NCBI RefSeq assembly: GCF_024979315.1
Contig: NZ_JANLCK010000003.1
Coordinates: forward strand, 62,001-126,000
Length of the DNA: 64,000 nucleotides
From: Herbiconiux oxytropis
GTDB taxonomy: Bacteria > Actinomycetota > Actinomycetes > Actinomycetales > Microbacteriaceae
Reading direction: 5' to 3'
In this document: positions 3,520-62,173 of the stretch, in pieces
How the letters are laid out: every line of letters starts with the position of its first letter
How positions within the stretch are numbered: the first letter of the stretch is position 1
Translations under genes and position numbers: made by a program
Notes under the pieces: generated by a model
Told to the model about the DNA's origin: nothing
Databases searched by the model: none
What the model saw: the letters and a program-made list of their open reading frames with translations, nothing else

Positions 3520-4737
3520 ATGAGTGCTCGTTCAGCCCAGCCGGTCGTGGAGGCCGCAGAGGTCGACCGCGTGCTCGCCACGCGGCTGCTGCGCTGCTTC
3601 ACTGCTCATCGGAGTGTGGTCGACGGGCTCGTCGTTTCGACGTGCTTCGTGGTCCAGACGCTCGTGCTCGTGCTGCCGGGCGCTCAACCGCTCTGGCCGG
3701 GGCTCGTGGTGGTGATCGTCTCGTGCGTGCTGCTGCTGTGGCGCCGTCGGTTTCCGCGGGCGATCCTCGTCGGAGTGGCGCTGGTGAGCACGGTGGGCCT
3801 GCTCCTGCCCAGCCCCGTCGCACTGCTGGCACTGCCCACCGCCGTGGCCCTCGGCACCGTGGCCTCCATGCTGCCCATCGGGACCGCGCTCCTGGGCTAC
3901 GCGGTCGTCGTCGGCCTGCCCGCTGCAGGGGCTCTCGTCCGCTTCCTGACGACCGGGGCGACCGAGGCGCCCTCGTTGCTCGACCCGCTGGCGTTGCTCG
4001 CTCTGGCGCTGGGGTTGGCGGCCCGCGGTGCGACGCAACGCAGGGAGGCTCTCACGGAGATGGTCAACCAGCGGCTCATCACGGCGCGGGTCGTGGAGCG
4101 GCAGCGCATCTCAGCGGAGATGCATGACATCGTCGCGCACTCCCTGTCGACGATGATCGCCCTCGCCGACGGGGCATCGAGTGCCTGGCAGAGGCATCCC
4201 GAGCGGTCGGCCATCGCTCTGAACAGACTCGGCGATGTCGGGCGCGGCGCGCTGGCCGACATGAACCGGATCCTGCAGGTGCTCCGTGAGGACGACCCGG
4301 TCCTGGACGAGAGACTGCACCATTCGGGACACAACGTCCCGGAGGTGGAGGAGCTCGTCGACGTCCTCCGCAGCGCAGGGATGCCCGTCAGGCTCATCCG
4401 CTCCGGGGAAGCGATGCCGGGCGACCCTGCGCTGTCGACGACGGTGTACAGGATCGTCCAGGAGTCGCTCACCAACGTGCTGCGCTATGCCGCGGAAGCC
4501 ACGCGAGTGGAGGTCGGCATCGACGTCGCGGGCGGCACCGTCGCGGTGCAGGTCATCGACGACGGCCGCGCCGGCACCCACCGGAGCCGAGTGCCGAGTC
4601 AGGGGAGCGGGCAGGGGCTGCTCGGCATAGCAGAGCGCGCCGCCGCGTATGGCGGAAGCAGCGCAGCAGGCCCTCGCGAGGGCGGGGGCTGGTCGACGAG
4701 CGCCACTCTGCTCTTCGACCGTGGAGCACCTGAATGA
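3520..4737 (+). CDS. Sensor histidine kinase, NarL/DesK type (HisKA_3)
   Basis: Membrane sensor kinase of 405 residues. ATG 3520 is preferred because GGAGGGAGG lies about 10 nt upstream; an in-frame GTG at 3442, overlapping the permease stop, is the alternative. The N-terminal 165 residues contain about five hydrophobic helices. The dimerisation helix carries RISAEMHDIVAHSLS with phospho-acceptor His202. The ATPase part shows the N-box-like VQESLTNVLRYA and the G-box GQGLLGIAERA. It is the likely phosphodonor for the response regulator, whose ATG overlaps this gene's stop (ATGA). The stimulus is unknown; linkage to an ABC transporter suggests sensing of a cell-envelope-active compound. Confidence 0.9.
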   Translation: MSARSAQPVVEAAEVDRVLATRLLRCFTAHRSVVDGLVVSTCFVVQTLVLVLPGAQPLWPGLVVVIVSCVLLLWRRRFPRAILVGVALVSTVGLLLPSPVALLALPTAVALGTVASMLPIGTALLGYAVVVGLPAAGALVRFLTTGATEAPSLLDPLALLALALGLAARGATQRREALTEMVNQRLITARVVERQRISAEMHDIVAHSLSTMIALADGASSAWQRHPERSAIALNRLGDVGRGALADMNRILQVLREDDPVLDERLHHSGHNVPEVEELVDVLRSAGMPVRLIRSGEAMPGDPALSTTVYRIVQESLTNVLRYAAEATRVEVGIDVAGGTVAVQVIDDGRAGTHRSRVPSQGSGQGLLGIAERAAAYGGSSAAGPREGGGWSTSATLLFDRGAPE

Positions 4738-5426
4738 CGGCGATCGCTCCCTCGCCGATCCGAGTCCTCGTGGTCGATGACCAGGAACTCGTCCGGATGG
4801 GCAACGCGCTGACGCTGGACTCCGCGGCCGACATCGAGGTCGTGGGCGAGGCGGCGACGGGGGAGGAGGCGATCCGGCGCACCCGGGAATGCAGACCCGA
4901 CGTCGTTCTCATGGATGTGCGGATGCCCGGCATGGGCGGCATCGAAGCGACCAGGATCATCACCACGGCTCACCCGGCCACCCGCGTTCTCCTACTCACC
5001 ACCTTCGACGTCGACGAGTACGCCTTCGGCGGCCTCGACGCCGGCGCCAGCGCCTTCCTGCTCAAGAGCACCCAGCCGGACAGGCTGCAGCAAGCTGTTC
5101 GAACGGTCCATGCCGGCGAGGCCGTCGTCGAACCGAGGATCACCAGGCATCTCGTCGAGCACTTCGCCTCGCGGGGGCGGCAGCGCGAGGGTGGGGGAGA
5201 AGGCGAGACGGCCCATCCGCTGGCCCCGCTCAGCCCTCGCGAGCTCGACGTGTTCGGCTGCATCGTCGCCGGGCTGTCGAACAGCGAGATCTGCGAGACC
5301 CTCCACCTCTCGCCGGCCACGGTGAAGACCCACGTGAACCGCATCTTCGCCAAGCTGCGCCTGCGCGACCGGGTCCACGCGGTGATCCTCGGATACGAAA
5401 TCCGGGGTCGGCGGCATCCGGGCTAG
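4734..5426 (+). CDS. Response regulator, NarL/FixJ family (LuxR-type HTH)
   Basis: DNA-binding response regulator of 230 residues. The receiver domain (about 8-125) contains the acidic pair in VVDDQE, phospho-acceptor Asp61 in VVLMDVRMPG, and the conserved Lys in FLLKSTQP. A polar, Gly/Arg-rich linker (about 145-160) leads to a LuxR-type helix-turn-helix with LSPRELDVFGCIVAGLSN and LSPATVKTHVNRIFAKL. It overlaps the kinase gene by four bases, which completes an ABC transporter plus two-component operon. It probably controls the upstream transporter genes; no binding site is identifiable. Confidence 0.92.
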   Translation: MTAIAPSPIRVLVVDDQELVRMGNALTLDSAADIEVVGEAATGEEAIRRTRECRPDVVLMDVRMPGMGGIEATRIITTAHPATRVLLLTTFDVDEYAFGGLDAGASAFLLKSTQPDRLQQAVRTVHAGEAVVEPRITRHLVEHFASRGRQREGGGEGETAHPLAPLSPRELDVFGCIVAGLSNSEICETLHLSPATVKTHVNRIFAKLRLRDRVHAVILGYEIRGRRHPG

Positions 5427-5451
5427 GGGCATCCGGCCCCGGCTCGCGGTG

Positions 5452-5694
5452 TCAGACGGCGATGCGGGCGATGGGACCCGTGACATCGGCGGGGGTGTAG
5501 CGCTCTGCCGCCTCGTCGGGCGTCGCAAAGGGCCCCGACCACGCGAACCGGTCGTGCCGGTGCGCGAGCTTCATGTACCAGCCGTCTTTCATGAGGTAGA
5601 CGGTGGCGAGCGGGGCGCTCGTCTCGGGGTCGTCCTCGACGTGGCAGAGGATCGCGAGGGCGTCGTTCTTGCGATGGATCACAATCTCGTTCAC
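5452..5694 (-). CDS. Conserved hypothetical protein, about 80 aa
   Basis: Small soluble protein that I do not recognise. GTG 5694 is chosen because a TATCGT box ends 7 nt before it and the extension to 5778 has a different, low-complexity composition. The sequence is acidic and mixed alpha/beta, with HRKNDALAILCHVEDD near the start and the patch WYMKLAHRHDRFAWSGPFA in the middle, followed by DEAAERY, which resembles the regular amphipathic ending of small cytoplasmic domains. It has no signal peptide or membrane helix. It stands alone, convergent with the response regulator gene. Confidence 0.6.
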   Translation of the reverse strand: MNEIVIHRKNDALAILCHVEDDPETSAPLATVYLMKDGWYMKLAHRHDRFAWSGPFATPDEAAERYTPADVTGPIARIAV

Positions 5695-5701
5695 GAGACC
5701 G

Positions 5702-5707
5702 ACGATA
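5702..5707 (-). promoter_or_regulatory. -10 box TATCGT for the small hypothetical gene
   Basis: Read on the minus strand, TATCGT lies 7 nt before GTG 5694, consistent with leaderless transcription. Confidence 0.4.
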
Positions 5708-5828
5708 CAGACCTGAGGGGCGCGCCATGTTACGGGGAGAATAAGAATCGGGGCGGCTGCCACGCCGGTTCCCGACATGGTTCGTCAACCCCTCATCCGA
5801 GGGGTCCGCGACGGTGTAATGTGAGGCC

Positions 5829-5950
5829 GACGGGGACGTCAGCGACGCCTCTGCTCCATGGCCGTAAGGGTAACGGCACATCATGGCTGAGGGGTCGACG
5901 TCTCCCTGCGGGATGAGAGTATCGGGTCCTCTCATCCCGCTAAACCTTTT
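5829..5950 (+). ncRNA. Candidate structured cis-acting leader RNA before the VOC gene
   Basis: A possible -10 (TAATGT, 5817-5822) precedes a nested helix set: GGG+GACGTC (5832-5840) with GACGTC+T+CCC (5897-5906, one bulge); CCTC (5848-5851) with GAGG (5889-5892); CCAT (5856-5859) with ATGG (5883-5886); GCCGT (5861-5865) with ACGGC (5873-5877). A perfect 12-bp terminator-like stem follows directly at 5908-5940, then TAAACCTTTT. The layout of one closed multi-helix domain plus a stem before the gene resembles a riboswitch with its expression platform. I do not recognise the class and cannot run covariance tests. It could also be a free-standing sRNA. Confidence 0.4.
5908..5940 (+). terminator. 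Perfect 12-bp hairpin, terminator or attenuator
   Basis: GCGGGATGAGAG (5908-5919) and CTCTCATCCCGC (5929-5940) are exact complements around a 9-nt loop, followed by TAAACCTTTT. It sits 28 nt before the GTG of the VOC gene, so it can act as an attenuator or end an upstream small RNA. Confidence 0.5.
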
Positions 5951-5968
5951 AAGGGCAGGGAGGAACGC

Positions 5969-6355
5969 GTGCAGCTCCGGGGCGTGCATCACATCGCCGT
6001 CATCGCCACCGACTACGAGCGCTCGAAGGCCTTCTACTGCGGCGTGCTCGGCTGCACGCTGCTGCGCGAGGTGCACCGGGCGGATCGCGATTCGTGGATG
6101 GGTGACCTGGCTCTGAACGGCAGCTACCTGATCGAGCTCTTCTCCTTCCCGTCTCCGCCCGCGCGTGCAACCTGGCCAGAGGCCACCGGGCTCCGGCACC
6201 TCGCCTTCGCGGTCGAGTCCGTGGCCGAGGCCCGGCGGGAGCTGCTGGCTGCGGGGGTGCGCTGCGAAGAGGTGCGGACAGATCCGCACACCGGCAAGCA
6301 GATGATGTTCTTCTTCGATCCGGACGATCTCCCCCTGGAGCTCTACCAGGTGTGA
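5969..6355 (+). CDS. VOC-family protein (glyoxalase/dioxygenase fold)
   Basis: Small cytoplasmic protein of 128 residues with one vicinal-oxygen-chelate domain. GTG 5969 is set by a strong Shine-Dalgarno GGGAGG (5958-5963). The N-terminal module begins VHHIAVIATDYERSKAFYC and the C-terminal module has LRHLAFAVESVAEARREL and ends FFFDPDDLPLELYQV. His6/His7, Glu in the ELF strand, a His in LRHLAF and the terminal Glu are in the usual metal-ligand positions, so a metal is likely. The pattern resembles the GloA-like YaeR subgroup; the substrate cannot be told from sequence. It lies directly behind the structured leader at 5829-5950. Confidence 0.8.
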   Translation: MQLRGVHHIAVIATDYERSKAFYCGVLGCTLLREVHRADRDSWMGDLALNGSYLIELFSFPSPPARATWPEATGLRHLAFAVESVAEARRELLAAGVRCEEVRTDPHTGKQMMFFFDPDDLPLELYQV

Positions 6356-6374
6356 GCTTCACCTTGTGCGACAT

Positions 6375-6390
6375 TCGAAACTATGTTCGA
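6375..6390 (+). promoter_or_regulatory. LexA-type SOS box
   Basis: TCGAAA-CTAT-GTTCGA matches the actinobacterial SOS consensus TCGAAC-N4-GTTCGA at 11 of 12 positions, and the outer arms extend to ATTCGAA / TTCGAAT (6373-6379, 6386-6392). A TATGTT -10-like box (6382-6387) lies inside it, and the ATG of the radical SAM gene follows 8 nt after the box, so bound LexA would block initiation. Confidence 0.75.
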
Positions 6391-6397
6391 ATGAAGC

Positions 6398-7465
6398 ATG
6401 CGCTGGAACCAGCAGTCCCTCGACCAGGAGGCACCCGCGGCCCTGCCCGGCCTCGCGAGGCTGAGCAACCTCGTGCGGAGCGTGCAGACTCCGGAGTTCG
6501 CCGGCATCACCTTTCACGAGGTGCTCGCGAAGAGCGCCCTCAACCATGTTCCGGGCACGAGCACGGCCATGCCGTTCGCCTGGACCGTCAACCCCTACCG
6601 TGGCTGCTCGCACGCTTGCGTCTACTGCTTCGCCCGGCCCACCCACCGCTACCTCGAGCTCGACGAGGGGGCCGACTTCGACCAGCAGATCATCGTGAAG
6701 GTCAATGTCGCGGAGGTCCTTGCCCGGGAGGTGGCGAAGAAGAGCTGGCAGCGTCCTGCGGTGGCGCTCGGCACCAACACCGATCCCTATCAGCGCGCCG
6801 AGGGCCGCTACGCGCTCATGCCGGGCATCGTGAGCGCGCTTGCGGGGTCGGGAACGCCGTTCTCGGTGCTCACGAAGGGCTCACTGCTCCGGCGCGACCT
6901 CGACCTGATCGCCACGGCCGCCGAGTCGGTTCCGGTGTCGATCGCGATGTCGATCGCGGTCTACGACGACGAGCTCCAGCAGTCGATCGAGCCGGGCACC
7001 CCGAGCACGAAGGCGCGACTGGCCACGGTGGCGGCGGTGCGCGAGAAGGGCCTCGACTGCCAGGTCTTCCTCATGCCCGTGCTGCCGCTGCTCACGGATA
7101 CGCGTGAGCACCTCGACCACGCGCTCGCCTCGGTCGCCGCCTCGGGCGCCTCGAGCGTCGTCTACTCGGCGCTGCACCTGAAGCCCGGCGTCAAGCAGTG
7201 GTTCCTCGCGTGGCTGGCGCGGGAGCATCCGGAGCTCATGGCCCCGTATGCGCGCATCTACGCCAAAGGCCCTTATGCGCCGGAGGAGTATCGGCGGTGG
7301 CTGGGTGAGCGGATGCGACCCCTGCTGCACAAGCACGGGCTCGATCGGTCGCGGCCCGCCGTGGGCACGGGCGGGCCGGCGTTCCGCGCGGCGGCCCGTC
7401 GGTTCCGGGAGCACGGGCAGGTGGGGTTCGGGCCGGCCGACGACACGCAGCCCGTGCTGTTCTGA
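6398..7465 (+). CDS. Rv2578c-family radical SAM protein
   Basis: Radical S-adenosylmethionine protein of 355 residues. The 4Fe-4S cluster motif is Cys70-x3-Cys74-x2-Cys77 (GCSHACVYCFAR), followed by RPTHRYLELD and TNTDPYQRAEGR, both characteristic of the SPL-like Rv2578c group, and by a TIM-barrel-like core to about residue 270. The family is related to spore photoproduct lyases and is predicted to act on DNA or nucleotides, but no reaction is established. The SOS box immediately upstream places it in the DNA-damage response here. It is monocistronic: a strong hairpin follows at 7509-7553. Confidence 0.88.
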   Translation: MRWNQQSLDQEAPAALPGLARLSNLVRSVQTPEFAGITFHEVLAKSALNHVPGTSTAMPFAWTVNPYRGCSHACVYCFARPTHRYLELDEGADFDQQIIVKVNVAEVLAREVAKKSWQRPAVALGTNTDPYQRAEGRYALMPGIVSALAGSGTPFSVLTKGSLLRRDLDLIATAAESVPVSIAMSIAVYDDELQQSIEPGTPSTKARLATVAAVREKGLDCQVFLMPVLPLLTDTREHLDHALASVAASGASSVVYSALHLKPGVKQWFLAWLAREHPELMAPYARIYAKGPYAPEEYRRWLGERMRPLLHKHGLDRSRPAVGTGGPAFRAAARRFREHGQVGFGPADDTQPVLF

Positions 7466-13467: not shown

Positions 13468-15444
13468 TCAGCGCATGGTCTTCGAGATCACGCTCATCAC
13501 GTGCGTGTCGGCGAGTGTAGTCGTGTCGCCCACCTCGCGGCCTTCGGCGACGTCGCGGAGGAGGCGCCGCATGATCTTGCCGGAGCGGGTCTTGGGCAGT
13601 TCGGTGACGATGAAGACCTCGCGGGGTCGTGCGATGGCGCCGATCTGGGCGGCGACGTGCGCCCGCAGGATCGCGCCGGCGTCGTCGGCCGCCGCGGCAT
13701 CCGCTTGGCTGGCGCGGGTGATGACGAACGCGACCACAGCCTGACCGGTGGTCTCGTCGCTCGCGCCCACGACGGCCGCCTCGGCGACCATGGGGTGCGA
13801 CACGAGGCTCGACTCGATCTCGGCCGTGCTGAGGCGGTGGCCGGAGACGTTCATGACGTCGTCGACGCGGCCGAGGAGCCAGATGTCTCCGTCTTTGTCG
13901 CGTCGGGCGCCGTCGCCGGCGAAGTAGGTGCTGGGGCCGAACTTCGACCAGTAGGTCTCGACGAACCGGTCGGGGTCGCCCCAGATGCCTCGGAGCATGC
14001 TCGGCCACGGCTCGGTCACCACGAGCAGGCCGCCCTGGTCGGCGCCGGTGGAGTGGAAGCCCTCGTCGACGACATCGATCGCGATTCCCGGGATCGGCAC
14101 CTGCGCGCTGCCAGGCTTCAGGGTGGTCACGCCGGGCAGGGCCGAGAGCATGATCGCACCCGTCTCGGTCTGCCACCACGTGTCGACCACCGGGGTGGTG
14201 CCGCCGCCGATGACGTCGCGGTACCAGACCCACGCCTCCGGGTTGATGGGTTCGCCCACGCTGCCGAGCAGGCGCAGGCTCGACAGGTCGAATTCCGCCG
14301 GGATCTGGCGGCCGAGCTTCATGAAGGTGCGGATGGCGGTGGGGGCGGCGTAGAGGATCGACACCTTGTGCTTCTGCACGATCTCCCACCACCGCCCGGG
14401 GTGCGGGGTGTCGGGGGTGCCCTCGTAGATGACCTGGGTGGCGCCGTTGGCGAGCGGCCCGTAGACCACGTACGAGTGCCCCGTGATCCATCCCACATCT
14501 GCAGTCGACCAATACACGTCCTCCTCGGGCTTCAGGTCGAACACATTCTTGTGAGTGAACGCGACCTGGGTGAGGTAGCCGCCGGATGTGTGGAGAATTC
14601 CCTTGGGCTTGCCGGTTGTGCCGGAGGTGTAGAGGATGAACAGCGGATTCTCCGCCGGGAACGCCTTCGCGATGTGCTCGGAGTCGACCTGGGCGATCTC
14701 CTCGTCCCACCACAGATCCCGGCCCTCGACCCAGTCGACGTCGTTGCCGCCGCGCTTCACGACGAGCACGTTCCGGACGGTGGTGCTGGTGCCGTCCGCA
14801 TCGGGTGCGAGAGCGGCGTCGACGGCGGGCTTGAGCGGGAAGACCCGCCCCTTGCGGTAGCCGCCGTCGGCGGTGATCACGAGCTTCGCGCTCGCATCGT
14901 TCACCCGGTCCCGGATGCTCTCGGCGCTGAAACCGCCGAAGATCACGGTGTGCACAGCCCCCAGGCGCGCGACCGCGAGCATCGCGATGACGGCCTCGGG
15001 AACGAGGGGGAGGTAGATCGCGACCCGGTCGCCCTGGCGGATGCCCAGCGCGGTGAGGAGATTGGCGGCTCTCTTCACCTCGGCGGTGAGCTCGGCGTAG
15101 GTGAAGGTGCGGCTGTCGCCGGGCTCGCCCTCCCAGTTCAGAGCGACGCGGTCGCCGTGACCCGCGATGACGTGGCGGTCGAGACAGTTGTAGGCCACGT
15201 TCAGCTCGCCGTCGTCGAACCAGGTCGCGAACGGAGGGTTCGACCAGTCGAGCGTGCGGGAGAAGGGCTTGTGCCAGTGCAGCAGGTCCCTCGCCTGGAC
15301 ACCCCAGAACTCCTGCCGCTCCGCAGGTGTCGTGCCGGCCTGCGTGTAGAGGTCGCGGGTGGCCACAGCCTGTGCGGCGAAAGCGTCGCTCGGCGGGAAC
15401 CGCCGCGACTCGTGCAGCAGATTGTCGATGTTGTCAGCCGTCAT
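13468..15444 (-). CDS. acs: Acetate--CoA ligase
   Basis: Acetyl-CoA synthetase of 658 residues, converting acetate, ATP and CoA to acetyl-CoA via acetyl-AMP. The N-terminal ACAS domain contains HKPFSRTLDWSNPPFATWF; the AMP-binding core is marked by ILYTSGTTGKPKGILHT (P-loop) and VDTWWQTETG; the hinge and C-terminal domain carry FAGDGARRDKDGD and the acetylation lysine in KTRSGKIMRRLLRDV. Length is normal. A GGGAG Shine-Dalgarno precedes ATG 15444. The preceding intergenic region contains the 6C RNA transcribed in the opposite direction. Confidence 0.96.
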   Translation of the reverse strand: MTADNIDNLLHESRRFPPSDAFAAQAVATRDLYTQAGTTPAERQEFWGVQARDLLHWHKPFSRTLDWSNPPFATWFDDGELNVAYNCLDRHVIAGHGDRVALNWEGEPGDSRTFTYAELTAEVKRAANLLTALGIRQGDRVAIYLPLVPEAVIAMLAVARLGAVHTVIFGGFSAESIRDRVNDASAKLVITADGGYRKGRVFPLKPAVDAALAPDADGTSTTVRNVLVVKRGGNDVDWVEGRDLWWDEEIAQVDSEHIAKAFPAENPLFILYTSGTTGKPKGILHTSGGYLTQVAFTHKNVFDLKPEEDVYWSTADVGWITGHSYVVYGPLANGATQVIYEGTPDTPHPGRWWEIVQKHKVSILYAAPTAIRTFMKLGRQIPAEFDLSSLRLLGSVGEPINPEAWVWYRDVIGGGTTPVVDTWWQTETGAIMLSALPGVTTLKPGSAQVPIPGIAIDVVDEGFHSTGADQGGLLVVTEPWPSMLRGIWGDPDRFVETYWSKFGPSTYFAGDGARRDKDGDIWLLGRVDDVMNVSGHRLSTAEIESSLVSHPMVAEAAVVGASDETTGQAVVAFVITRASQADAAAADDAGAILRAHVAAQIGAIARPREVFIVTELPKTRSGKIMRRLLRDVAEGREVGDTTTLADTHVMSVISKTMR

Positions 15445-15600
15445 GTTGCTATCGCTCCCTTGCGAGACACACCCTCGGAATTCCTCGACGATACCGCACC
15501 GCCAGAACGCCCTCGTGCTGCGCTCGTTGCATCCCGTTGCGTGCGTGAGAGGGCGTCGGTGCGACCCCCCATCCGGGGGCTGAGAATTCGCTGGGCTGGT

Positions 15601-15628
15601 TTGACCGGATGTTTCGAGCGGGTAAACT
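15601..15628 (+). promoter_or_regulatory. Promoter of the 6C RNA
   Basis: TTGACC (15601-15606), a 16-bp spacer and TAAACT (15623-15628) form one of the best -35/-10 pairs in the window, placing the start near 15635 at the foot of the first hairpin. Confidence 0.65.
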
Positions 15629-15635
15629 CGTAGCT

Positions 15636-15735
15636 ACCGGACCTCGTGTCCGGATGCAGCGCAACAGTGATTCCCCCCAATCCAGCGTTGCTGCGGCGGC
15701 ACCCTTCCCCCCATTGGGTGCCGCCCCTTCTCTTT
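15636..15735 (+). ncRNA. 6C small RNA (B11-like)
   Basis: About 100-nt RNA with three hairpins. Hairpin 1: CCGGAC/GTCCGG (15637-15653). Hairpin 2: GCAGC (15656-15660) with GCTGC (15690-15694), inner stem GATT/AATC (69-72 with 79-82 of 15600) closing a loop of exactly six C (15673-15678). Hairpin 3: GGCGGCACCC (15695-15704) with GGGTGCCGCC (15716-15725), whose loop holds six C (15707-15712), followed by CCTTCTCTTT as intrinsic terminator. Two stem-loops with six-C loops define the actinobacterial 6C RNA motif. Its position between acs and the Tad genes matches, from memory, B11 in M. tuberculosis, where the C-rich loops base-pair with G-rich mRNA start regions. Confidence 0.88.
15695..15735 (+). 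terminator. Intrinsic terminator of the 6C RNA
   Basis: The third hairpin of the 6C RNA (10 perfect base pairs) is followed by CCTTCTCTTT. It isolates the RNA from the downstream tadA-like gene, which has its own -10 box at 15867. Confidence 0.75.
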
Positions 15736-15866
15736 AAGCGATTCCCTTTCTCTCAGCGATTCTTTGCGGAAGAGCGACGACGAGGTCGTCTCCTGCACAG
15801 GCTGCTTCCGCGCCGATGGTCTTCACAGATCGAGTGAGGGGCAGGCGCGCGGAGGTCTCCGCGGAA

Positions 15867-15872
15867 TAGCGT
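15867..15872 (+). promoter_or_regulatory. -10 box TAGCGT for the Tad locus
   Basis: TAGCGT ends 6 nt before ATG 15879, consistent with a leaderless Tad transcript. Between the 6C terminator and this box (15736-15866) nothing else is recognisable. Confidence 0.5.
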
Positions 15873-15878
15873 GCCCGC

Positions 15879-16910
15879 ATGCTCTCCCTCCCCGACATCG
15901 CGCGCCGCGCCGAGGCCTTCGGCCCTCTCGCCCGCTATCTCGACGACCCCCGAGTCACAGACCTCTTCGTCAACGGCCACTCCGAGCTGTGGCTCGATCA
16001 CGGGGCTGGGCTCGAACCGGCCGATGACTGGAGCTGCCCGAGCGAGCAGCACCTCCGCGACTTCGCCGTCCGGCTGGTGGCCCGTGGTGGCCGGCACATC
16101 GACGAGGCCGCTCCCTGCGTCGACGTCGAGCTCGAAGGCACCCGGGTGCACGTGGTGCTGCCCCCGGTGGCGGTGGGCGGCACCTGCATCTCGGTCCGGG
16201 TGGCGAGGTCGGTGCGGCCCTCTCTCGACGAACTCGACCGCGCGGGGCTCTTCGGCGCCGGCTCGCGCGGCACAAGGCGGCGATCCGTGCTCGAGGCCGC
16301 GGTGCGCGCACGCACGAACCTGCTCGTCACCGGCGCGGGAGGCAGCGGCAAGACGACCCTGCTGGCGGCCGTCCTCGCGGCCTCAGATCCGCGGGAGCGC
16401 ATCGTCGTCATCGAAGACGTCGCCGAGCTGCGCATCTCCCATCCGCACGTCGTCACGCTCGAGTCCCGGCAGCCGAACCTCGAGGGGGCGGGTGGTGTCG
16501 CCGCCGCCGAGCTCGTGCGCCAGGCGCTGCGCATGCGTCCGGACCGGCTGGTCGTGGGGGAGTGCCGGGGTGCTGAGATCCGGGAACTCCTGGCGGCGCT
16601 CAACACCGGTCACGACGGTGGTGCAGGCACTCTTCACGCCAACGCCCTCGCCGACGTGCCCGCGCGGCTCGAGGCGCTCGGCGCGCTCGCGGGTCTCGAC
16701 GCGGTCGCTGTGGCCAGGCAGGCGGTCAGCGCCATCGGACTCGTCTGCCACCTGCGGCGCACCTCGGCGGCCGTCCGCGAGGTGGAGGGCTATGGCACTC
16801 TCGCTCTCGACCCGCGCGACCGACTCGTCGTGCGCGAGCTCGAGCTTCCGGAGCCTGGGCCGGAGCGTGATCCCGAGGTCGCGAGGTCGCCCGGGAAGGC
16901 CCTGGCATGA
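15879..16910 (+). CDS. tadA: TadA/CpaF-family secretion ATPase
   Basis: Cytoplasmic ATPase of 343 residues that powers assembly of Tad/Flp pili. An N-terminal all-alpha/beta part (1-130) with YLDDPRVTDLFVNG is followed by the RecA-like core: Walker A GAGGSGKTT (152-160), an Asp-box with IVVIEDVAEL, Walker B region RPDRLVVGECRG and the His-box GHDGGAGTLHANA. It lacks the long N-terminal extension of some CpaF proteins, as in actinobacterial Tad ATPases. It overlaps the next gene by four bases (ATGA). Confidence 0.92.
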   Translation: MLSLPDIARRAEAFGPLARYLDDPRVTDLFVNGHSELWLDHGAGLEPADDWSCPSEQHLRDFAVRLVARGGRHIDEAAPCVDVELEGTRVHVVLPPVAVGGTCISVRVARSVRPSLDELDRAGLFGAGSRGTRRRSVLEAAVRARTNLLVTGAGGSGKTTLLAAVLAASDPRERIVVIEDVAELRISHPHVVTLESRQPNLEGAGGVAAAELVRQALRMRPDRLVVGECRGAEIRELLAALNTGHDGGAGTLHANALADVPARLEALGALAGLDAVAVARQAVSAIGLVCHLRRTSAAVREVEGYGTLALDPRDRLVVRELELPEPGPERDPEVARSPGKALA

Positions 16911-50676: not shown

Positions 50677-50749
50677 CGGGTTCCTCGTCGTCGGACGAGC
50701 CCCGGGGTGCGCTGAAGCGCCGACGGCCCCGCCCTCGGCAGAACCGCCC

Positions 50750-50919
50750 GTGCGCCTCTCATCCGGACTGAGGGAGGCCTGGGCCTCGCCATTACCGTCG
50801 GTTCTGGAATTGCACCAGATCAGCCTTCGTCGCGATCCGCACCGCCTGGGCGGTGCTTCTCTCATCTCGGGCTCGCGGACTTTCACCGCCGGTTCAGAAT
50901 CTCACTGACCCCGGAGCAC
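50750..50919 (-). promoter_or_regulatory. FMN riboswitch (RFN element)
   Basis: On the minus strand: GTGCTCCGGGGTCAGTG, GATTCTGAACCGGCGGTGA, AAGTCCGCGAGCC, GATCTGGTGCAATTCC, AGAACCGACGGTAATGG and GTCCGGATGAGAG, the conserved RFN blocks in order, with terminal GTGC/GCAC pairing. The GGCGG-rich stretch between 50749 and ribD may form the switching stem. Confidence 0.93.
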
Positions 50920-50938
50920 GTATCGAATATCGTACACC

Positions 50939-52360: not shown

Positions 52361-52396
52361 ACTGACCGGCACGCACATCTGAACACGCCGTGACAT

Positions 52397-52602
52397 CTGC
52401 GGCGGGAGAGTCCGGTCGCAGCCATCGGCCGGCGCCGTAGGAGCAATCCCTCTCCGGGAAACTCTCAGGCCCCCGCACCGCCGCAGCGAGGCGACTCTGG
52501 AGAGCGAGGCACCGTCGCCACCCGCGCCGGCCGTCTCCACCGACGGGGCAAGCGGCCGAACGCCGCGGAATCTCTCAGGTACCACGACAGAGCGGAGAGG
52601 AC
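52397..52602 (+). promoter_or_regulatory. Tandem glycine riboswitch
   Basis: Aptamer 1 (52397-52486): closing stem CTGCGGCG/CGCCGCAG, GGGAGAGTCC, GTAGGAGCAATCC and AAACTCTCAGGCCCC. Aptamer 2 (52490-52602): GACTCTGGAGAGCG, CCGACGGGGCAAGC, GAATCTCTCAGGTACCA and GACAGAGCGGAGAGG. Both carry the conserved glycine-pocket blocks, joined by a short linker. It lies 34 nt before the serine deaminase gene. Confidence 0.93.
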
Positions 52603-52636: not shown

Positions 52637-54091
52637 ATGACGCTCAGCACCTTCGACCTGTTCTCTGTGGGCATCGGTCCGTCGTCGTCGCACACCGTGG
52701 GGCCCATGCGGGCCGCCTCCGCCTTCGCCGCCCTTCTCGTCGCCGAAGGGCGGCTGCCGGTGGTCGCCTCCGTGCGCGTCGACCTCTACGGATCGCTCGC
52801 CGCCACCGGCCGCGGGCACGGCACCTTCGGCGCGGTGCTGCTCGGGCTCGAGGGGCACCGGCCCGAGGAGATCCTCCCCGAGACCGTCGAGGCGCGGCGC
52901 TCGGCCATTGCGGCGTCCGGATGCGTGCTGCTGGGCGGGGAGCGCTCGATACCGCTCCGGGAGGACGACCTCGTGCTGCATCCGCTCACCGTGCTGCCCC
53001 GGCACAGCAACGCGCTGAGGTTCACGGCGGTCGCGGTCGGTGGCGAGGTGCTGGCGTCGGAGACGTACTACTCGGTGGGCGGTGGGTTCGTCGAGCGGGA
53101 GGGGGACATCGCCGATGGGGCGGCGGGTTCCGGTGAGGGTGACGTGCGCGTCGGTGCCGTGCCGTTCCCGTTCCGCACGGCCGCCGAGCTGCTGGGGCAT
53201 TGCGCAGCCTCCGGATTGTCGTTCGCGGGCGTGATGCTCCGCAACGAGGTCGAGGTGTCCGGGTGCGACGAGGCCGAGGTGAGTCGTCGCCTCCTCGTCG
53301 TCCGCGACGTGATGGACGAGTGCGTGGCCACGAGCCTCGGCCGCACCGGGGTGCTCCCGGGCGGGCTGTCCGTGCGGCGGCGGGCCCCCGAGTGGCTGGC
53401 GCGGCTCGAGGCAGCCGATCCGCTCGGGGCACCGGAGTACTGGCAGGAGTGGGTGAACCTCGTGGCGCTCGCCGTGAACGAGGAGAACGCATCCGGCGGG
53501 CGGGTTGTGACGGCGCCCACGAACGGGGCCGCGGGCATCGTGCCCGCCGTGCTGCACTACGCGCGGAACTACCTGCGGCGGGGTGAAGGTGCGAGCGGCG
53601 GCGACGGCGCGGGCGGCGACGAGGGTGGCGCGGGCGCGGGGCTCAGCGCCGACGAGGTGTGCGTGCGGTTCCTGCTCGCAGCGGCCGCGGTGGGCGTGCT
53701 CTACAAGGAGCAGGCGTCGATCTCGGGGGCGGAGGTGGGCTGTCAGGGCGAGGTGGGCTCCGCGTCGTCGATGGCGGCCGCCGGTCTCGCCGAGGTGATG
53801 GGCGGCACCCCCGCGCAGGTCGAGAACGCCGCCGAGATCGCGATGGAGCACAACCTCGGGCTGACCTGCGATCCGATCGGCGGACTCGTGCAGATCCCGT
53901 GCATCGAGCGCAACGCGCTCGCCGCCGCGAAGGCCATCAACGCGGCGCGGATGGCGCTGTGGGGCGATGGCAGCCACCACGTGAGCCTCGACCAGGTGAT
54001 CGCGACGATGCGCGAGACCGGGCGGGACATGAACTCGAAGTACAAGGAGACCTCACTCGGCGGACTCGCCGTCAGCGTCGTGGAGTGCTGA
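52637..54091 (+). CDS. sdaA: L-serine ammonia-lyase (single chain, iron-sulfur)
   Basis: Serine deaminase of 484 residues, converting L-serine to pyruvate and ammonia with a 4Fe-4S cluster. The beta-type domain starts [20 protein letters not shown]; the alpha-type domain has [32 protein letters not shown] and IERNA, providing the three cluster cysteines. A Gly/Asp-rich loop (about 314-338) interrupts the alpha domain. The start is ATG 52637; the tandem glycine riboswitch precedes it, so glycine probably turns the gene on to dispose of serine made from glycine. Confidence 0.94.
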
Positions 54092-57153: not shown

Positions 57154-57204
57154 CCGGCGGCCACCGACACCGAGCGCGGTGCCGGTGGCCCTCGGCGGGA
57201 CCGC

Positions 57205-60200
57205 TCAGACCGCGCAGACGGTCGCTGCGGCCAGCACGGTCACGGACCCCGTGGCGAAGCCCGCGACGGCCGGCGCCTCGAGCCGGAAGGCGAGGGCGCC
57301 TGGCGGCGTGCCGGGCGGCACCGTCACGCGCAGGCGGAGCAGACCCTCGGCGTCGACGACCGCGGAGTAACGGCCCTCCGCCGCCGCCCACGTGAAGGAG
57401 ACGACGGTTCCCGGGGCGAGTCCGGATGCGCTCACCGTGATCGCCTCGCCCTGCACCACATCGGCGCGGTCGGCGGTGACGTCGAACTCCGTCCAAGCGA
57501 CCTCGGCCTCGCTCACCACGACGGTCGCCGTGGCGACGGAAGCGCGACCGCGCTCGTCGGTGACGGTGAGCGTGATCGTGTACTCGCCTTCGGCCTCGTA
57601 GACGTGCGGCACGACGGACTCGCTGCCGGACACCACGGCGGTGCCGTCGCCGAAGTCGAACGAATAGACCGGCGACGCGCCCTCGTAGAGGCTGGCGCTC
57701 GCGTCGAACGAGGTGGCGACTCCGGGAACGACCGCACCCGACCAGGCGACGTGAGGACTCGGAGCGGTGCTCGCATCCTCGATCGCGGCGATGATCTCGT
57801 CGCCGACCTCGGAGGCGCCCGAGATGTCGGCGACGGTGCCGCCGCTCGCCGCGGCGAGCGGGTTCAGCTGCTCGGTGAGCTGGCCGTCAGAGCTCAGCCC
57901 GTAGAGTCCGACCGGGAGACCCGTGGCCTCGGCGAGCGGGACGGCCCCGGAGAGGGCTGAGACGCCGCCGCCCGTGCCCTCGCCGGCCAGGCCCTCGGTT
58001 CCGGGGCAGACGGGCAGCGCTGGTCCACCGATGATGTTGCCGGCGCCGTTCTGACAGACCGAGGCGGTGCCCGCCAGGAAGCCGGCGATCTGAGCTCCCG
58101 TGAAGGCCGTGTGCACCTCGGGATCGTGCGAGGGTGCATCGCCCATCACGACCATGGCGCGCGCGGCCGAGGAACGCCACTCCTCGGTGAGGGCCGTGGC
58201 CACGCCCGAGTAGACGGCTTCGGGGAGGTCGCCGCCGCCCGAGGCGTAGAGCGTCGACAGCGCCGAGTCGAGCGAGGCGAGATCGCTCGTGAGCGGCTGC
58301 ACCGTGCGGGCGATGAACTCGTCTCCGTAATCGCGGTACTCCACGAGCCCCACCCTGGCGCTCTTCGCTGTCGAGGCGAGCTTGCCGGCGATGGTGCGGG
58401 CGTTGTCGACGGCAGCCGAGATGTAGCTGCCCATCGAACCCGTGGTGTCGATGACGAACATCAGGTCGATGGCCTCACGGACCGTGCCGCCGCCGTCCTC
58501 CCCCGGGACCGGCCCGGACGAGCCCCCGCCCGAGCCGCCGTCTACCGGCGGATCGGTGTCCGGCGTCACCCCGAAGGTCTTGCTGAGCTTCAGCAGTACG
58601 AACTTGTAGGTGACCTCGCCGAGCGTCCAGTCCAGGAGGGTGATGTTGAACACCGGCACCTCGACCACCAGGGCGAGCCCTGCGGCGATCTTCACGTAGA
58701 CCTCGACTGCGGCCGTGAGCGTGCCCGCCGAGCTGCCTTCGACCGACACGGATGCGCCCAGCAGGAACGACATCGACACCTCCGGTCCGGCCGCGCCATA
58801 CAGGAGCGCCGACGCCGAGAACCTGGGGCCGAATGACGCGTCGAGCGCACCCCCGCCCGTCACCTCGTCGTCGTAGGTCGCGATCTGGGGGTCGCCCTTG
58901 GTGCCGCTCGGAGCCTCGTCGATCTTCGTGCACGTGCCGTCGAGGCACTGCACGCCGATCTTCTTCTCGACCTTCTCGGACATGGAGTACTGCAGGTTGG
59001 CCGTCGCGGTGACCGAACCCGTGAGCGCGAGCGACACGCTCGGGCTGACGTAGACGGGAATGCCGAGATACACCGTGATGCCCGGGAAGTAGTACTTGGC
59101 GATGTCGCGTTCGAACTTCTTGAGCGACTGTGAGACGGAGGCTTCGAGGTAGATCGCGATCTCGCTCTTCACCTCACTCGAGAGTGTGAACGACGTCTCG
59201 AAGTTCAGGTGCGGCTTCGGGATCGCCCACGACCAGGTGACCCAGACCTCCGCCGAGATCGAGAGCGTCGCCGTCGTCGACTGCGAGGCTTCGAGGTAGA
59301 AGCCGCCCTCGACCTTGACCTTCGCCTTGGTCTTCTTGCCGTCGGTCTTCGAGGAGTCCTCGGTGCTGTCCGACTCCTTCATGTAGCCGAGCTTGATCGC
59401 ACTGCTCATGGTCTTGGAGGCAGAGACCTCCCCGCCCACGACCGAGGGAACGGCCTTCCCTGCGGTGGCGGAACGGCTTTCGAGCGACGACGCGGCCGGG
59501 CGGTCGCCCTCGGCGGACCCGCCCTCCGTGATCTCCTCGCCGTCCGTGAGCTCGACCATGTCCGTGTCGTCGACGGCCGTGTCGTCGACCCAGGCCGCGA
59601 GGCCGTCACCGGCGACGATCTCGTCGACTCCGGCAGCCGCCGCCTCCGTGACCTCGACCACGGCCGTCGGGGTCTCACCTGCGCCGAGCTGGAACTCCTG
59701 ATCGGCCTTCGCCTGCACGACGACGTCTGTGATGACGGCGGACTCGGTGTGCAGCACCGTGCCCGTCGCCGTGCGGTCGACGGCCACGATCTTCCGCAGG
59801 AAGCCCTGAGGAGCATTCGGGATGGCAGAGGCGACGAGGTAGTCGCCGGCACCCACCGTGAGGTCGCAGACCACGACCACCGTGTCGGCGGTCACGGCCG
59901 TGACCGCGATGGCGACCGGATCGTCGAGGATCTGCACGTCGTCGACGATCACTGTCTCGCCCTCGTCCGGCAGCACCACGTCGAGGTCGATGCTCGTGCG
60001 CGCCGTCGTGCCGTCGCGATCCGTGGCGACCACCTCGAAAGTCCGTTCGCCCGAGGTGGGGACGGCGGTGTCGAGGCTCCAGGAGGTTCCCTCCGGAGTC
60101 TGGCGCACGGCCGCCGAGCCGATCAGGGTGTCACCGGAGCGCACGGTGACCGTGGCGATGGTGCCGCCGTCGACCTTCAGGCCGCCCTCGAGGGCGATCA

Positions 60201-61431
60201 CACCGCCGGTCTCAGCGAGGTCGACCCGATCGCCGGATCCGTGACTGGTCACGGTGACCGCCAGTTCGTCGGATGCCGTGGTGGCTTCACCGAGGATGCC
60301 CGCGACAACGACGGCGCCGGCGGTGAACGAACCGCGCTTGGTCGACAGAGCCGAGTCCTCCCCGAGGAGCACGAGCTGAGGAGCGGCACCCGCCGCGCCG
60401 TCGACGAGGACGCCGTTGCTGCGACCGGACGCCCCGGTGTCGGGGGTGAGTGCGCTGCGCTCCGGGGCGCCTGCGGCCCAGACCAGCGCGAGTGCGTGGG
60501 CGGCTTCCGCGAGTCCGGCGGTGGAGACCGGGGAAGGGGCGCCTGCAGACACCTTCACCCGTTGCGGATCGGATGCGGGGGCGGGGACCAGGCTGCCGGC
60601 GACGTTCGCGGGCAGGATCTCGCCGAGTGGGCCCTGCGGGGCGTCGCCCATGTAGCCGCGCACGGTGAGGGCGATCGACAGCGACTCCGGACCCGAGATC
60701 GAGATGTCACCGTCGGCGTCGGGGAAGGCGATCGTGGAGATGGTGTCGCCGCCGCGCACCGGGAGCGCGAGTCCGCCGAGCTCGAGGGTTCCGGATGCCG
60801 TGCTGTCGCCGTGCACGGCCGCGGTCACGAACACTCCGCGGACATCGGTGCTCGGCACACCGCCGAGGCCGACCACGCCGATGCTGACGCCCGTCGCGCC
60901 GAGGGGGAGCGGGCCCTCCTGCGGGGTGCGGAGCACGGGCATCGGCAGTGCCACGAGCGAGCCGGGCAGCTGGGCAGCCGACGCGAAGACGGCGATGGTC
61001 TCGACGCGCACGTCGACCGGCGTCGTGGCCTGCAGCGCGAAGGAGCCGTCCCCGGTGAGCGGAACGAGCACGGTCGTGCTGCCGGAAGCGCCGGCGGAGA
61101 GACGCAGCGCTTCGGCGCCGGATGCGGAGACGGCTGTGGCGGCGGCGGGCTCGAGACCGGTGAGGCGCACGAGTGCCGAGGCCGGGGCGGGGCCGGTGGG
61201 TGTGCCGGGCGTGACATCGATCTGCACCGGATCCGAGCCCAGGGTGCTGCCCACGGACAGCTGCGAGTCGACCACGGGGACCGACGGGGCGATCGCGGTG
61301 TACCCGGCCGTCGCCGCCGGAGGTACGGGGGACGCGGCGGCGGCACTCGCCGCGAGGCCTCCCGTGCCGAGGACGGAGCCCGCGACCACAGCGGCTGCGG
61401 TGGCGGACGCGAGCAGAGAGAGCCGCTTCAT
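57205..61431 (-). CDS. Large secreted surface protein with VWA and PKD domains
   Basis: Exported protein of 1408 residues of unknown function. Signal peptide about 1-34 (Lys-Arg, then an Ala-rich core). Residues about 45-290 contain beta-rich modules with the TVLVPLTGDGSFALQATTP-type pattern common in actinobacterial surface stalks; 290-660 is more beta sandwich-like and acidic. Residues 660-955 are a distinct beta/amphipathic region (YLEASQSTTATLSISAEVWV, AIYLEASVSQSLKKFERDIA) that I cannot assign. A Gly/Ser linker leads to a VWA domain (988-1215) with MIDAS-like Asp995-Thr-Thr-Gly-Ser999, a PKD domain (1225-1308, FDFGDGTAVV) and a C-terminal Ig-like end. No sorting signal or C-terminal membrane helix. 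Its ATG overlaps the upstream gene (ATGA). Confidence 0.87.
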   Translation of the reverse strand: MKRLSLLASATAAAVVAGSVLGTGGLAASAAAASPVPPAATAGYTAIAPSVPVVDSQLSVGSTLGSDPVQIDVTPGTPTGPAPASALVRLTGLEPAAATAVSASGAEALRLSAGASGSTTVLVPLTGDGSFALQATTPVDVRVETIAVFASAAQLPGSLVALPMPVLRTPQEGPLPLGATGVSIGVVGLGGVPSTDVRGVFVTAAVHGDSTASGTLELGGLALPVRGGDTISTIAFPDADGDISISGPESLSIALTVRGYMGDAPQGPLGEILPANVAGSLVPAPASDPQRVKVSAGAPSPVSTAGLAEAAHALALVWAAGAPERSALTPDTGASGRSNGVLVDGAAGAAPQLVLLGEDSALSTKRGSFTAGAVVVAGILGEATTASDELAVTVTSHGSGDRVDLAETGGVIALEGGLKVDGGTIATVTVRSGDTLIGSAAVRQTPEGTSWSLDTAVPTSGERTFEVVATDRDGTTARTSIDLDVVLPDEGETVIVDDVQILDDPVAIAVTAVTADTVVVVCDLTVGAGDYLVASAIPNAPQGFLRKIVAVDRTATGTVLHTESAVITDVVVQAKADQEFQLGAGETPTAVVEVTEAAAAGVDEIVAGDGLAAWVDDTAVDDTDMVELTDGEEITEGGSAEGDRPAASSLESRSATAGKAVPSVVGGEVSASKTMSSAIKLGYMKESDSTEDSSKTDGKKTKAKVKVEGGFYLEASQSTTATLSISAEVWVTWSWAIPKPHLNFETSFTLSSEVKSEIAIYLEASVSQSLKKFERDIAKYYFPGITVYLGIPVYVSPSVSLALTGSVTATANLQYSMSEKVEKKIGVQCLDGTCTKIDEAPSGTKGDPQIATYDDEVTGGGALDASFGPRFSASALLYGAAGPEVSMSFLLGASVSVEGSSAGTLTAAVEVYVKIAAGLALVVEVPVFNITLLDWTLGEVTYKFVLLKLSKTFGVTPDTDPPVDGGSGGGSSGPVPGEDGGGTVREAIDLMFVIDTTGSMGSYISAAVDNARTIAGKLASTAKSARVGLVEYRDYGDEFIARTVQPLTSDLASLDSALSTLYASGGGDLPEAVYSGVATALTEEWRSSAARAMVVMGDAPSHDPEVHTAFTGAQIAGFLAGTASVCQNGAGNIIGGPALPVCPGTEGLAGEGTGGGVSALSGAVPLAEATGLPVGLYGLSSDGQLTEQLNPLAAASGGTVADISGASEVGDEIIAAIEDASTAPSPHVAWSGAVVPGVATSFDASASLYEGASPVYSFDFGDGTAVVSGSESVVPHVYEAEGEYTITLTVTDERGRASVATATVVVSEAEVAWTEFDVTADRADVVQGEAITVSASGLAPGTVVSFTWAAAEGRYSAVVDAEGLLRLRVTVPPGTPPGALAFRLEAPAVAGFATGSVTVLAAATVCAV

Positions 61432-62075
61432 CGCGTGCTCCTCTCGCCGGTGCGGCGCGTTCGCGCCAGCATCAGTGCGCCGCCGGCGGCGAGCAGGAGA
61501 GCCAGCACGACGAAGGGAGCGACCGCTGCCCCCGTGTCGGCGAGGTCGCCGCCGCGCGAACCGGCCGGGCGAGAAGTGCCCGGGTCGGTGATGTCGGAGG
61601 GGACAGGCTCTCCGTCGCCGGGGATCGTTCCCGGATCGGTGTCGGGGTTGGCCGAGAGGGGGACCTGCGCCCCGACGACTGCCAGCACCACGCCGGAGGC
61701 GTCGACGACCGTGATCGAGACGTCGGGAGTGATGGCGATCGTGGAGCTCACGTAGACGGACGTGGCCCCAGGGGTCACGGGCACGACAGCTCCCGCGCCG
61801 AAGCTCGTGGGCGAGACCGGCACGCCCGCTGTCGAGGCCTGCTCGATCACGAGGCTGAGCGCGGATGCCTGGGTGCCGCCCGATTCCACATCGATCCAGG
61901 CGGAGACCCCCTCGGCGGGGACGACCACATCGAACCGTGCCACGGAGACGGGCTCGGGCAAGGCGGCTGCTCCGGCAGCGGCGATACCGCCGGAACCCGT
62001 GAGACCGGCGAGAGCCACCGCGACCGCGATCGTGCGGAGTGCAGTGCGCAGGCGCGTTCGAGCGCGTGTTTCCAT
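61428..62075 (-). CDS. Small LAxTG wall-anchored surface protein
   Basis: Exported protein of 215 residues from ATG 62075, preceded by GGGGGAAG; an in-frame ATG at 62090 is possible, while the open frame to 63545 covers other genes. Signal peptide about 1-38. One beta-rich domain (about 44-135) resembles the stalk modules of the next gene's product (VVPVTPGATSVYVSSTIAIT). A Pro/Asp-rich spacer (145-170) leads to a sorting signal: Leu178-Ala-Asp-Thr-Gly182, a hydrophobic stretch and RTRR. LAxTG is the motif used by class E sortases of actinobacteria. It is coupled to the VWA/PKD gene by an ATGA overlap; no sortase lies in the window. Confidence 0.85.
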   Translation of the reverse strand: METRARTRLRTALRTIAVAVALAGLTGSGGIAAAGAAALPEPVSVARFDVVVPAEGVSAWIDVESGGTQASALSLVIEQASTAGVPVSPTSFGAGAVVPVTPGATSVYVSSTIAITPDVSITVVDASGVVLAVVGAQVPLSANPDTDPGTIPGDGEPVPSDITDPGTSRPAGSRGGDLADTGAAVAPFVVLALLLAAGGALMLARTRRTGERSTR

Positions 62076-62173
62076 CGTGTCTTCCCCCATCGCCGTCCCC
62101 CAGAACGTCGTCGGGTCACACTCTATTCGACAACTGAAGTCGTGCGCGACACGGGTGCACGACTGCGTGCCGC

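Follow-up and report, generated by a model that had tools for sequence, protein, structure and literature searches.

Overlapping genes for a putative sortase-anchored protein and a large secreted protein form a conserved pair in Herbiconiux oxytropis and its relatives

Architecture of the locus

In a 64,000-nt stretch of the Herbiconiux oxytropis genome (contig NZ_JANLCK010000003.1, positions 62,001 to 126,000; hereafter the window), we analyzed two overlapping genes that encode a small, putatively wall-anchored protein and a large secreted protein. The pair is conserved in relatives and appears to form one surface-display unit, in which the small protein probably holds the large protein at the cell surface. 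Coordinates, strand, protein lengths and overlap, first reported in a preliminary description made from the DNA letters, were all borne out by the sequence:

57205..61431, minus strand: gene of the large secreted protein, 1408 aa (open reading frame (ORF) and translation)
61428..62075, minus strand: gene of the small protein, 215 aa, putative wall-anchored partner (ORF and translation)
61428..61431, minus strand: ATGA overlap formed by the small-gene stop and the large-gene start (sequence)

The 4-nt overlap argues for coupled translation of the two genes. The preliminary description had the proteins made in a fixed relation; the coupling stands, whereas a fixed ratio does not follow from the overlap.

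The small protein is composed of an N-terminal hydrophobic helix (residues 3–26), a beta domain (44–140), a linker, LADTG (178–182), a second helix (187–213) and a terminal RTRR, with the signal peptide and the sorting signal judged by inspection. AlphaFold2 modeled residues 44–140 confidently (pLDDT 79–97 per block of ten residues).

61656..61946, minus strand: Ig-like beta domain of the small protein, residues 44–140 (AlphaFold2; alignment in 14 homologs)
61437..61544, minus strand: sorting signal consisting of LADTG (178–182), a hydrophobic helix and the RTRR tail (sequence)

LAXTG is the substrate motif of class E sortases (PMC5148588), and the features of such substrates (N-terminal signal, LAxTG, hydrophobic helix and basic tail) were all present, as the preliminary description had proposed for this C-terminus. 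It had also suggested looking for a class E sortase gene, and one was found at G000:C12:270809-271207 (NF033747, 230.1 bits versus a cutoff of 160). This is one of four sortase-family matches in the genome, none adjoining the pair; the others are class C (254 bits versus 160), class F-like (113.9 bits versus 166) and weakly class E-like (39.4 bits versus 160). As a separate observation, a class C sortase gene in the same genome (L002, 4–2043) adjoins a gene for a protein with a C-terminal LPLTG and hydrophobic helix; together they may constitute a pilus locus.

Conservation of the gene pair

A 507-residue core piece of the large window protein had matches in 4 of the 16 genomes of the genus, its own included. 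A profile of five cores (A1) matched 14 of 398 family genomes, 11 of them nearly full length, and a 15-row profile (A3) matched 43 of 396 order genomes and 40 of 396 phylum genomes; near-full-length A3 matches at E<1e-80 numbered three in the order and one in the phylum, with the window genome counted in both and the remainder weaker or partial. Relatives with matches included Nesterenkonia, Leucobacter and metagenome-assembled Bifidobacteriaceae and Promicromonosporaceae.

Sixteen distinct loci were defined by a core matching nearly full length at E<1e-80. At 15 of them, spread over at least three families as labeled in the search (f1, f6 and f20), a small gene lay directly upstream on the same strand (the window, L020, L021, L022, L023, L048, L049, L050, L051, L052, L053, L116, L044, L045 and L047). 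With the nearest ATG taken as the start, the genes overlapped by 4 nt at 13 of these loci (ATGA at 10, GTGA at 3), and at the remaining two they were separated by 1 or 2 nt. By eye, all 15 small proteins ended with LxxTG, a hydrophobic stretch and basic residues; the motif was LAxTG in eight and LPVTG in Nesterenkonia. A profile built from the small beta domain alone matched 11 of the 398 family genomes, identical to the 11 with a near-full-length core (chance 1.2e-21, taking the two 398-genome samples as identical). The partner at L116, found with a small-protein profile that did not contain L116, is an independent case. Pairwise distances of the two proteins were correlated across 14 loci (Mantel r 0.705, 0 of 10,000 permutations, uncorrected for the species tree). 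Thus, the pair and its overlap are conserved in relatives, as the preliminary description had suggested checking, and at these loci the two genes mostly stand together rather than apart, the latter being the outcome it had named as contrary to its proposal.

Two neighbors of the pair are recorded from relatives, both read by eye: a SipW-type signal peptidase-like ORF together with an ORF carrying RCC1-like repeats (L048, 9764–12055, in G266), and a 1399-aa protein ending with LAHTG that resembles a carbohydrate-active enzyme (L021, 11111–15310, in Herbiconiux sp. GW715).

Anchors of relatives lacking the small gene

The sixteenth locus, L046, had no partner; its large protein carries SLH repeats at the N-terminus (PF00395, 82.3 bits), and no sorting signal was found in the three forward frames of the 524 bases upstream. 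More distant homologs likewise had no partner in the stretches read. They were sampled, with 20 stretches covering 19 of the 81 additional genomes matched in the order and the phylum, and 24 partnerless ORFs were compared, L046 included (two in L119 may be one gene; those of L122, L123, L124 and L128 are cut by or near contig ends). SLH repeats were present in L130 and L131, and were confirmed with Pfam in L046, L131 and the one copy scanned of the two in L130. A script recognized a C-terminal membrane helix in L054, L125, L126 and L128, a lipobox in L133 and L055, and a strong N-terminal helix, which could be a signal peptide, in L119, L121, L127 and L132. No recognized anchor was found in L122, L123 and L124, all on short contigs.

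The strongest argument for the small protein being an anchor lies in the contrast with relatives: where these have an anchor built into the large protein, the pair has a separate sortase substrate. The two proteins could instead be surface components that are expressed together without binding one another, the small one an independent wall protein and the large one released or held by other wall or glycan binding. We consider this unlikely, given the paired, overlapping arrangement (15 of 16 loci), the shared occurrence in an identical set of 11 among 398 genomes and the SLH repeats in one unpaired close relative. Several points nevertheless weigh against the display unit. Neither a partner nor a recognized anchor was found in the distant homologs L117, L118 (two), L120, L129 and L134, which also speaks for separate components, and some relatives lacking both may need none. 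The threshold behind the 16 loci was chosen after the hits were seen, the 11 matching genomes were among those that supplied training loci for the small-domain profile, and the best two (core) or 12 (small domain) candidates were scored per genome, such that lone genes could be missed. The Mantel correlation carries no correction for species relatedness, and the contig of L046 reaches just 524 bases past the upstream end of its large gene. The sorting signal itself falls under the curated cutoffs of sorting-signal models (NCBIfam LAVTG model NF058582, 22.7 bits versus 27, E 7.6e-05; TIGR01167, 13.9 bits versus 15.9). Finally, the case for binding of the two proteins and for their expression comes from sequence.

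Two arrangements among the partnerless forms are of separate interest. L130 (G482) encodes two similar D5-D6-RCC1 proteins (4177–7212 and 13582–16596; domain names as given below) whose starts lie ~9 kb apart, suggesting duplication, and the large homolog at L119 (5203–8684) is split between two overlapping frames of 670 and 519 aa, which may reflect a frameshift.

Domains and C-terminus of the large protein

The large protein begins with a hydrophobic signal, followed by six beta domains or regions (D1–D6) and, in the window species, a VWA and a PKD domain:

60250..61290, minus strand: D1 (residues 48–149), D2 (160–283) and D3 (285–394), three tandem beta domains, possibly a C1q/TNF-like pseudo-trimer
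60400..60426, minus strand: D3 loop with GRSNGVLVD, residues 336–344, a candidate docking loop (motif counts; segment missing in L046)
59965..60255, minus strand: D4, Ig-like domain (393–489)
59686..59961, minus strand: D5, beta domain (491–582; domain profile and model)
58564..59466, minus strand: D6 (656–956), beta region distantly DUF7223-like (sub-cutoff PF23865; long strands in a low-confidence model)
58108..58464, minus strand: VWA domain (990–1108) with DTTGS at 995, only in the window species (PF25106, VWA_4, 52.2 bits versus a cutoff of 27)
57514..57762, minus strand: PKD domain (1224–1306), only in the window species (PF18911, PKD_4, 50.5 bits versus a cutoff of 27)

Hydrophobicity, Pfam and the sequence thus agreed with the preliminary description on the signal peptide, the VWA and PKD domains and the lack of an anchor in this protein. 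The PF25106 score and the DxTxS metal-site motif place the domain among VWA proteins, and it may bind metal. Residues 1–985 of the window protein had no Pfam match at E<=1. For the region 660–955, which had been singled out for a test against profile libraries, this left the window protein without a match, and the family gave a sub-cutoff match to PF23865 (DUF7223) in L045 (22.0 bits versus 27), with 1 of 15 members at E<=0.01. The core of the first member listed had no Pfam or NCBIfam family above cutoff, and the 15 members gave weak single-domain matches. A beta module shared by the two proteins, claimed earlier, was not upheld, as probabilities reached only 0.1–1.7% when the profile of the small beta domain was compared with those of six large-core segments.

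No recognizable sorting signal was present in any of the 15 partnered large proteins, so that the C-terminal anchor whose discovery would have spoken against the earlier proposal did not emerge. In L049, L050, L051, L052 and L116, a loose motif match lay within the final 70 residues, with no hydrophobic stretch accompanying it. In the window protein, residues 1388–1406 are mildly hydrophobic (Kyte-Doolittle window 1.74), with neither motif nor basic tail; we rejected them as a hidden anchor and read them as the final strand of a beta domain, and the other 14 partnered proteins had no hydrophobic C-terminal stretch. Read-through or frameshifting into an anchor was likewise rejected, as nothing suitable was seen by eye between 57205 and the ORF read as xthA.

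The lack of a recognized sorting signal in the large protein also bears on the possibility that the small protein serves to dock or prime a covalent linkage, such as an isopeptide bond or a polymer made by sortase, and that the pair builds a pilus-like fiber in place of a two-protein complex. The class C sortase gene elsewhere in the genome, a weak match to the streptococcal pilin isopeptide model TIGR03786 in 1 of 15 members (E 0.0078) and a match to the FctA isopeptide domain (PF12892) in one member (E 0.0064) point in this direction. Even so, we regard such a fiber as very improbable, because the sortase genes of the window's genome do not lie beside the pair either, and none was noticed by eye beside the pair in relatives, on whose stretches no sortase profile was run.

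Exchangeable C-terminal modules

The C-terminal tips of the 15 partnered large proteins varied: VWA-PKD in the window, RCC1 in L044 (cut by the contig end), leucine-rich repeats (LRR) in L045 and a carboxypeptidase-regulatory module in L047, while 11 proteins stopped at most 49 residues past the core. The other four Herbiconiux large proteins stopped shortly beyond the position corresponding to residue 956, and the window tail had local similarity only, over the PKD or the last domain, in 7 of the 16 genus genomes, its own included. The occurrence of VWA and PKD in 1 of 15 proteins, together with the varied tips, indicates that the conserved object is the core with its partner and that the tip is exchangeable. 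Hence a metal-dependent adhesive arm, which the preliminary description had taken as the essence of the system, finds no support in that place. Variable C-termini could also suggest a polymorphic toxin; this was rejected, as the modules were VWA, PKD, LRR, RCC1 and carboxypeptidase-regulatory, with no toxin family.

The large protein might be an extracellular enzyme or a nutrient-binding factor (for polysaccharide or metal) held near the cell, rather than an adhesin. The DTTGS of the VWA domain, which we take to be a possible metal-site motif, may indeed bind metal; on the other hand, Pfam and NCBIfam matches of the scanned proteins included no catalytic family, and the C-terminal modules are presumably mostly binding types, which makes this role improbable in our judgment. 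A parallel in its favor comes from the csc clusters (cscA-D, WxL) of Bacillota, for which an operon of exported proteins with an uncharacteristically small LPxTG protein, CscD, has been described and a surface complex and a role in carbon source acquisition have been proposed (PMC1534035).

A candidate docking domain

The D3 profile scored 98–133 bits in all 15 partnered proteins and had no convincing match in the 24 partnerless ORFs (one at 8 bits); the training set of the domain profiles held 14 of the 15 partnered proteins (all except L116), a bias in favor of these, and excluded L046. The pattern GRxxG..[VL][DE], derived from the partnered proteins before counting, occurred in 13 of 15 partnered large proteins and in 0 of 24 partnerless ORFs. 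L046 keeps D1, D2, D4, D5 and D6 at intermediate scores, and its D3-loop segment is missing. Because profile and pattern were derived from partnered proteins and most partnerless forms are distant, the clean contrast comes down to this one protein. From these patterns, D3 is inferred to be a candidate site of docking onto the small protein. The acidic linker (585–655) had also been considered as a docking site and was rejected: a linker profile misses the partnered L116, so the linker is dispensable.

Site and gain of the pair

57172..62169, no strand assigned: segment separating the ORFs read as xthA and yihY, in this position in the window species alone (comparison with G008)

The names yihY, xthA, trpS and hisD are readings of the proteins made without a family search. 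The matched ends of yihY and xthA lay 46–119 bp apart in all 15 other Herbiconiux genomes, with no match to either pair gene between them, so that the pair occupied this site in 1 of 16 genomes. In the close relative G008, ~97–98% identical in the yihY and xthA proteins, similarity stopped at ~62169 and resumed at ~57171. In the four other carriers of the genus the pair lies at different sites, and in two of these an ORF read as hisD adjoins it. The simplest reading of these comparisons is that both genes were gained together.

Model and relation to known systems

For the display unit, we propose that both proteins would be exported through their N-terminal signals and produced together through translational coupling. 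The class E sortase would attach the small protein to the wall via LADTG, and its exposed Ig-like domain would hold the anchorless large protein at the surface. The large protein would then act as a conserved scaffold, made up of the three-domain head, the Ig domain, D5 and the long-stranded beta region, presenting an exchangeable C-terminal module, here VWA and PKD. The gene anatomy, the conserved pairing and overlap, the co-occurrence, the other type of anchor in a relative, the sortase gene and the joint presence of both genes at a site empty in the other species are observed; that the proteins are exported and anchored in cells, that they bind each other, with D3 as the candidate site, and that they have an adhesive role is what we infer. 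A more specific version is offered tentatively, as doubtful though conceivable: D1–D3 would form a single-chain C1q/TNF-like pseudo-trimer docking via D3 and its GRxxG loop onto a sortase-fixed Ig-like receptor, the C-terminal module (VWA-PKD, RCC1, LRR or none) would be freely exchanged, and the genes would travel between sites as a cassette, making up a previously unnamed actinobacterial display platform. Compared with the C1q/TNF-like heads of C1q, adiponectin and Cbln1, identity is 8–9% with no C1q Pfam match, D1–D3 are three different domains in one chain, and the model was built from 8 sequences.

The csc clusters, which share an operon of exported proteins including one small sortase-signal protein, and the long and short chaplins of Streptomyces, the short ones lacking an anchor, may serve by analogy as precedents for an anchor-and-arm pair. 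Neither protein of the window had a WxL, DUF916 or chaplin-domain Pfam match at E<=1, and there is one large modular partner here versus small hydrophobic proteins in the chaplins. ScaE of Ruminococcus is fixed by sortase and carries a single cohesin. In cellulosomes, anchoring scaffoldins are surface proteins that retain a large secreted scaffold via a cohesin-dockerin pair (PMC5141474). Retention of a large secreted partner by a surface protein is thus common to both, although it is proposed from the genes here, and no cohesin or dockerin Pfam match was found. Large surface proteins with RCC1 repeats are described for bee-gut bifidobacteria (PMC4449606); an RCC1 module also forms the L044 tip, but each protein there has its own LPxTG anchor, whereas the anchor here is a separate protein.

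Among the open-access papers listed by our searches, we recognized none on this pair, and none was listed for DUF7223 or for Herbiconiux with sortase. Taken together, the locus encodes a conserved, coupled anchor-and-arm pair with known precedents, of a family not found among those papers. Sortase substrates are usually judged singly; anchor and functional arm appear here as separate coupled genes, and the close relative L046 has SLH repeats instead of an anchor gene. Therefore, other unanchored-looking large secreted proteins of Actinobacteria may be wall-held via a neighbor. The two proteins are also a candidate binding pair, and the exchangeable tip could serve protein display.

Other features of the window

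Two riboswitch aptamers scored above the Rfam gathering score elsewhere in the window: an FMN riboswitch at 50747–50922 on the minus strand and a glycine riboswitch at 52393–52490 on the plus strand. Shortly downstream of the glycine aptamer, an ORF at 52637 resembles L-serine dehydratase by eye.
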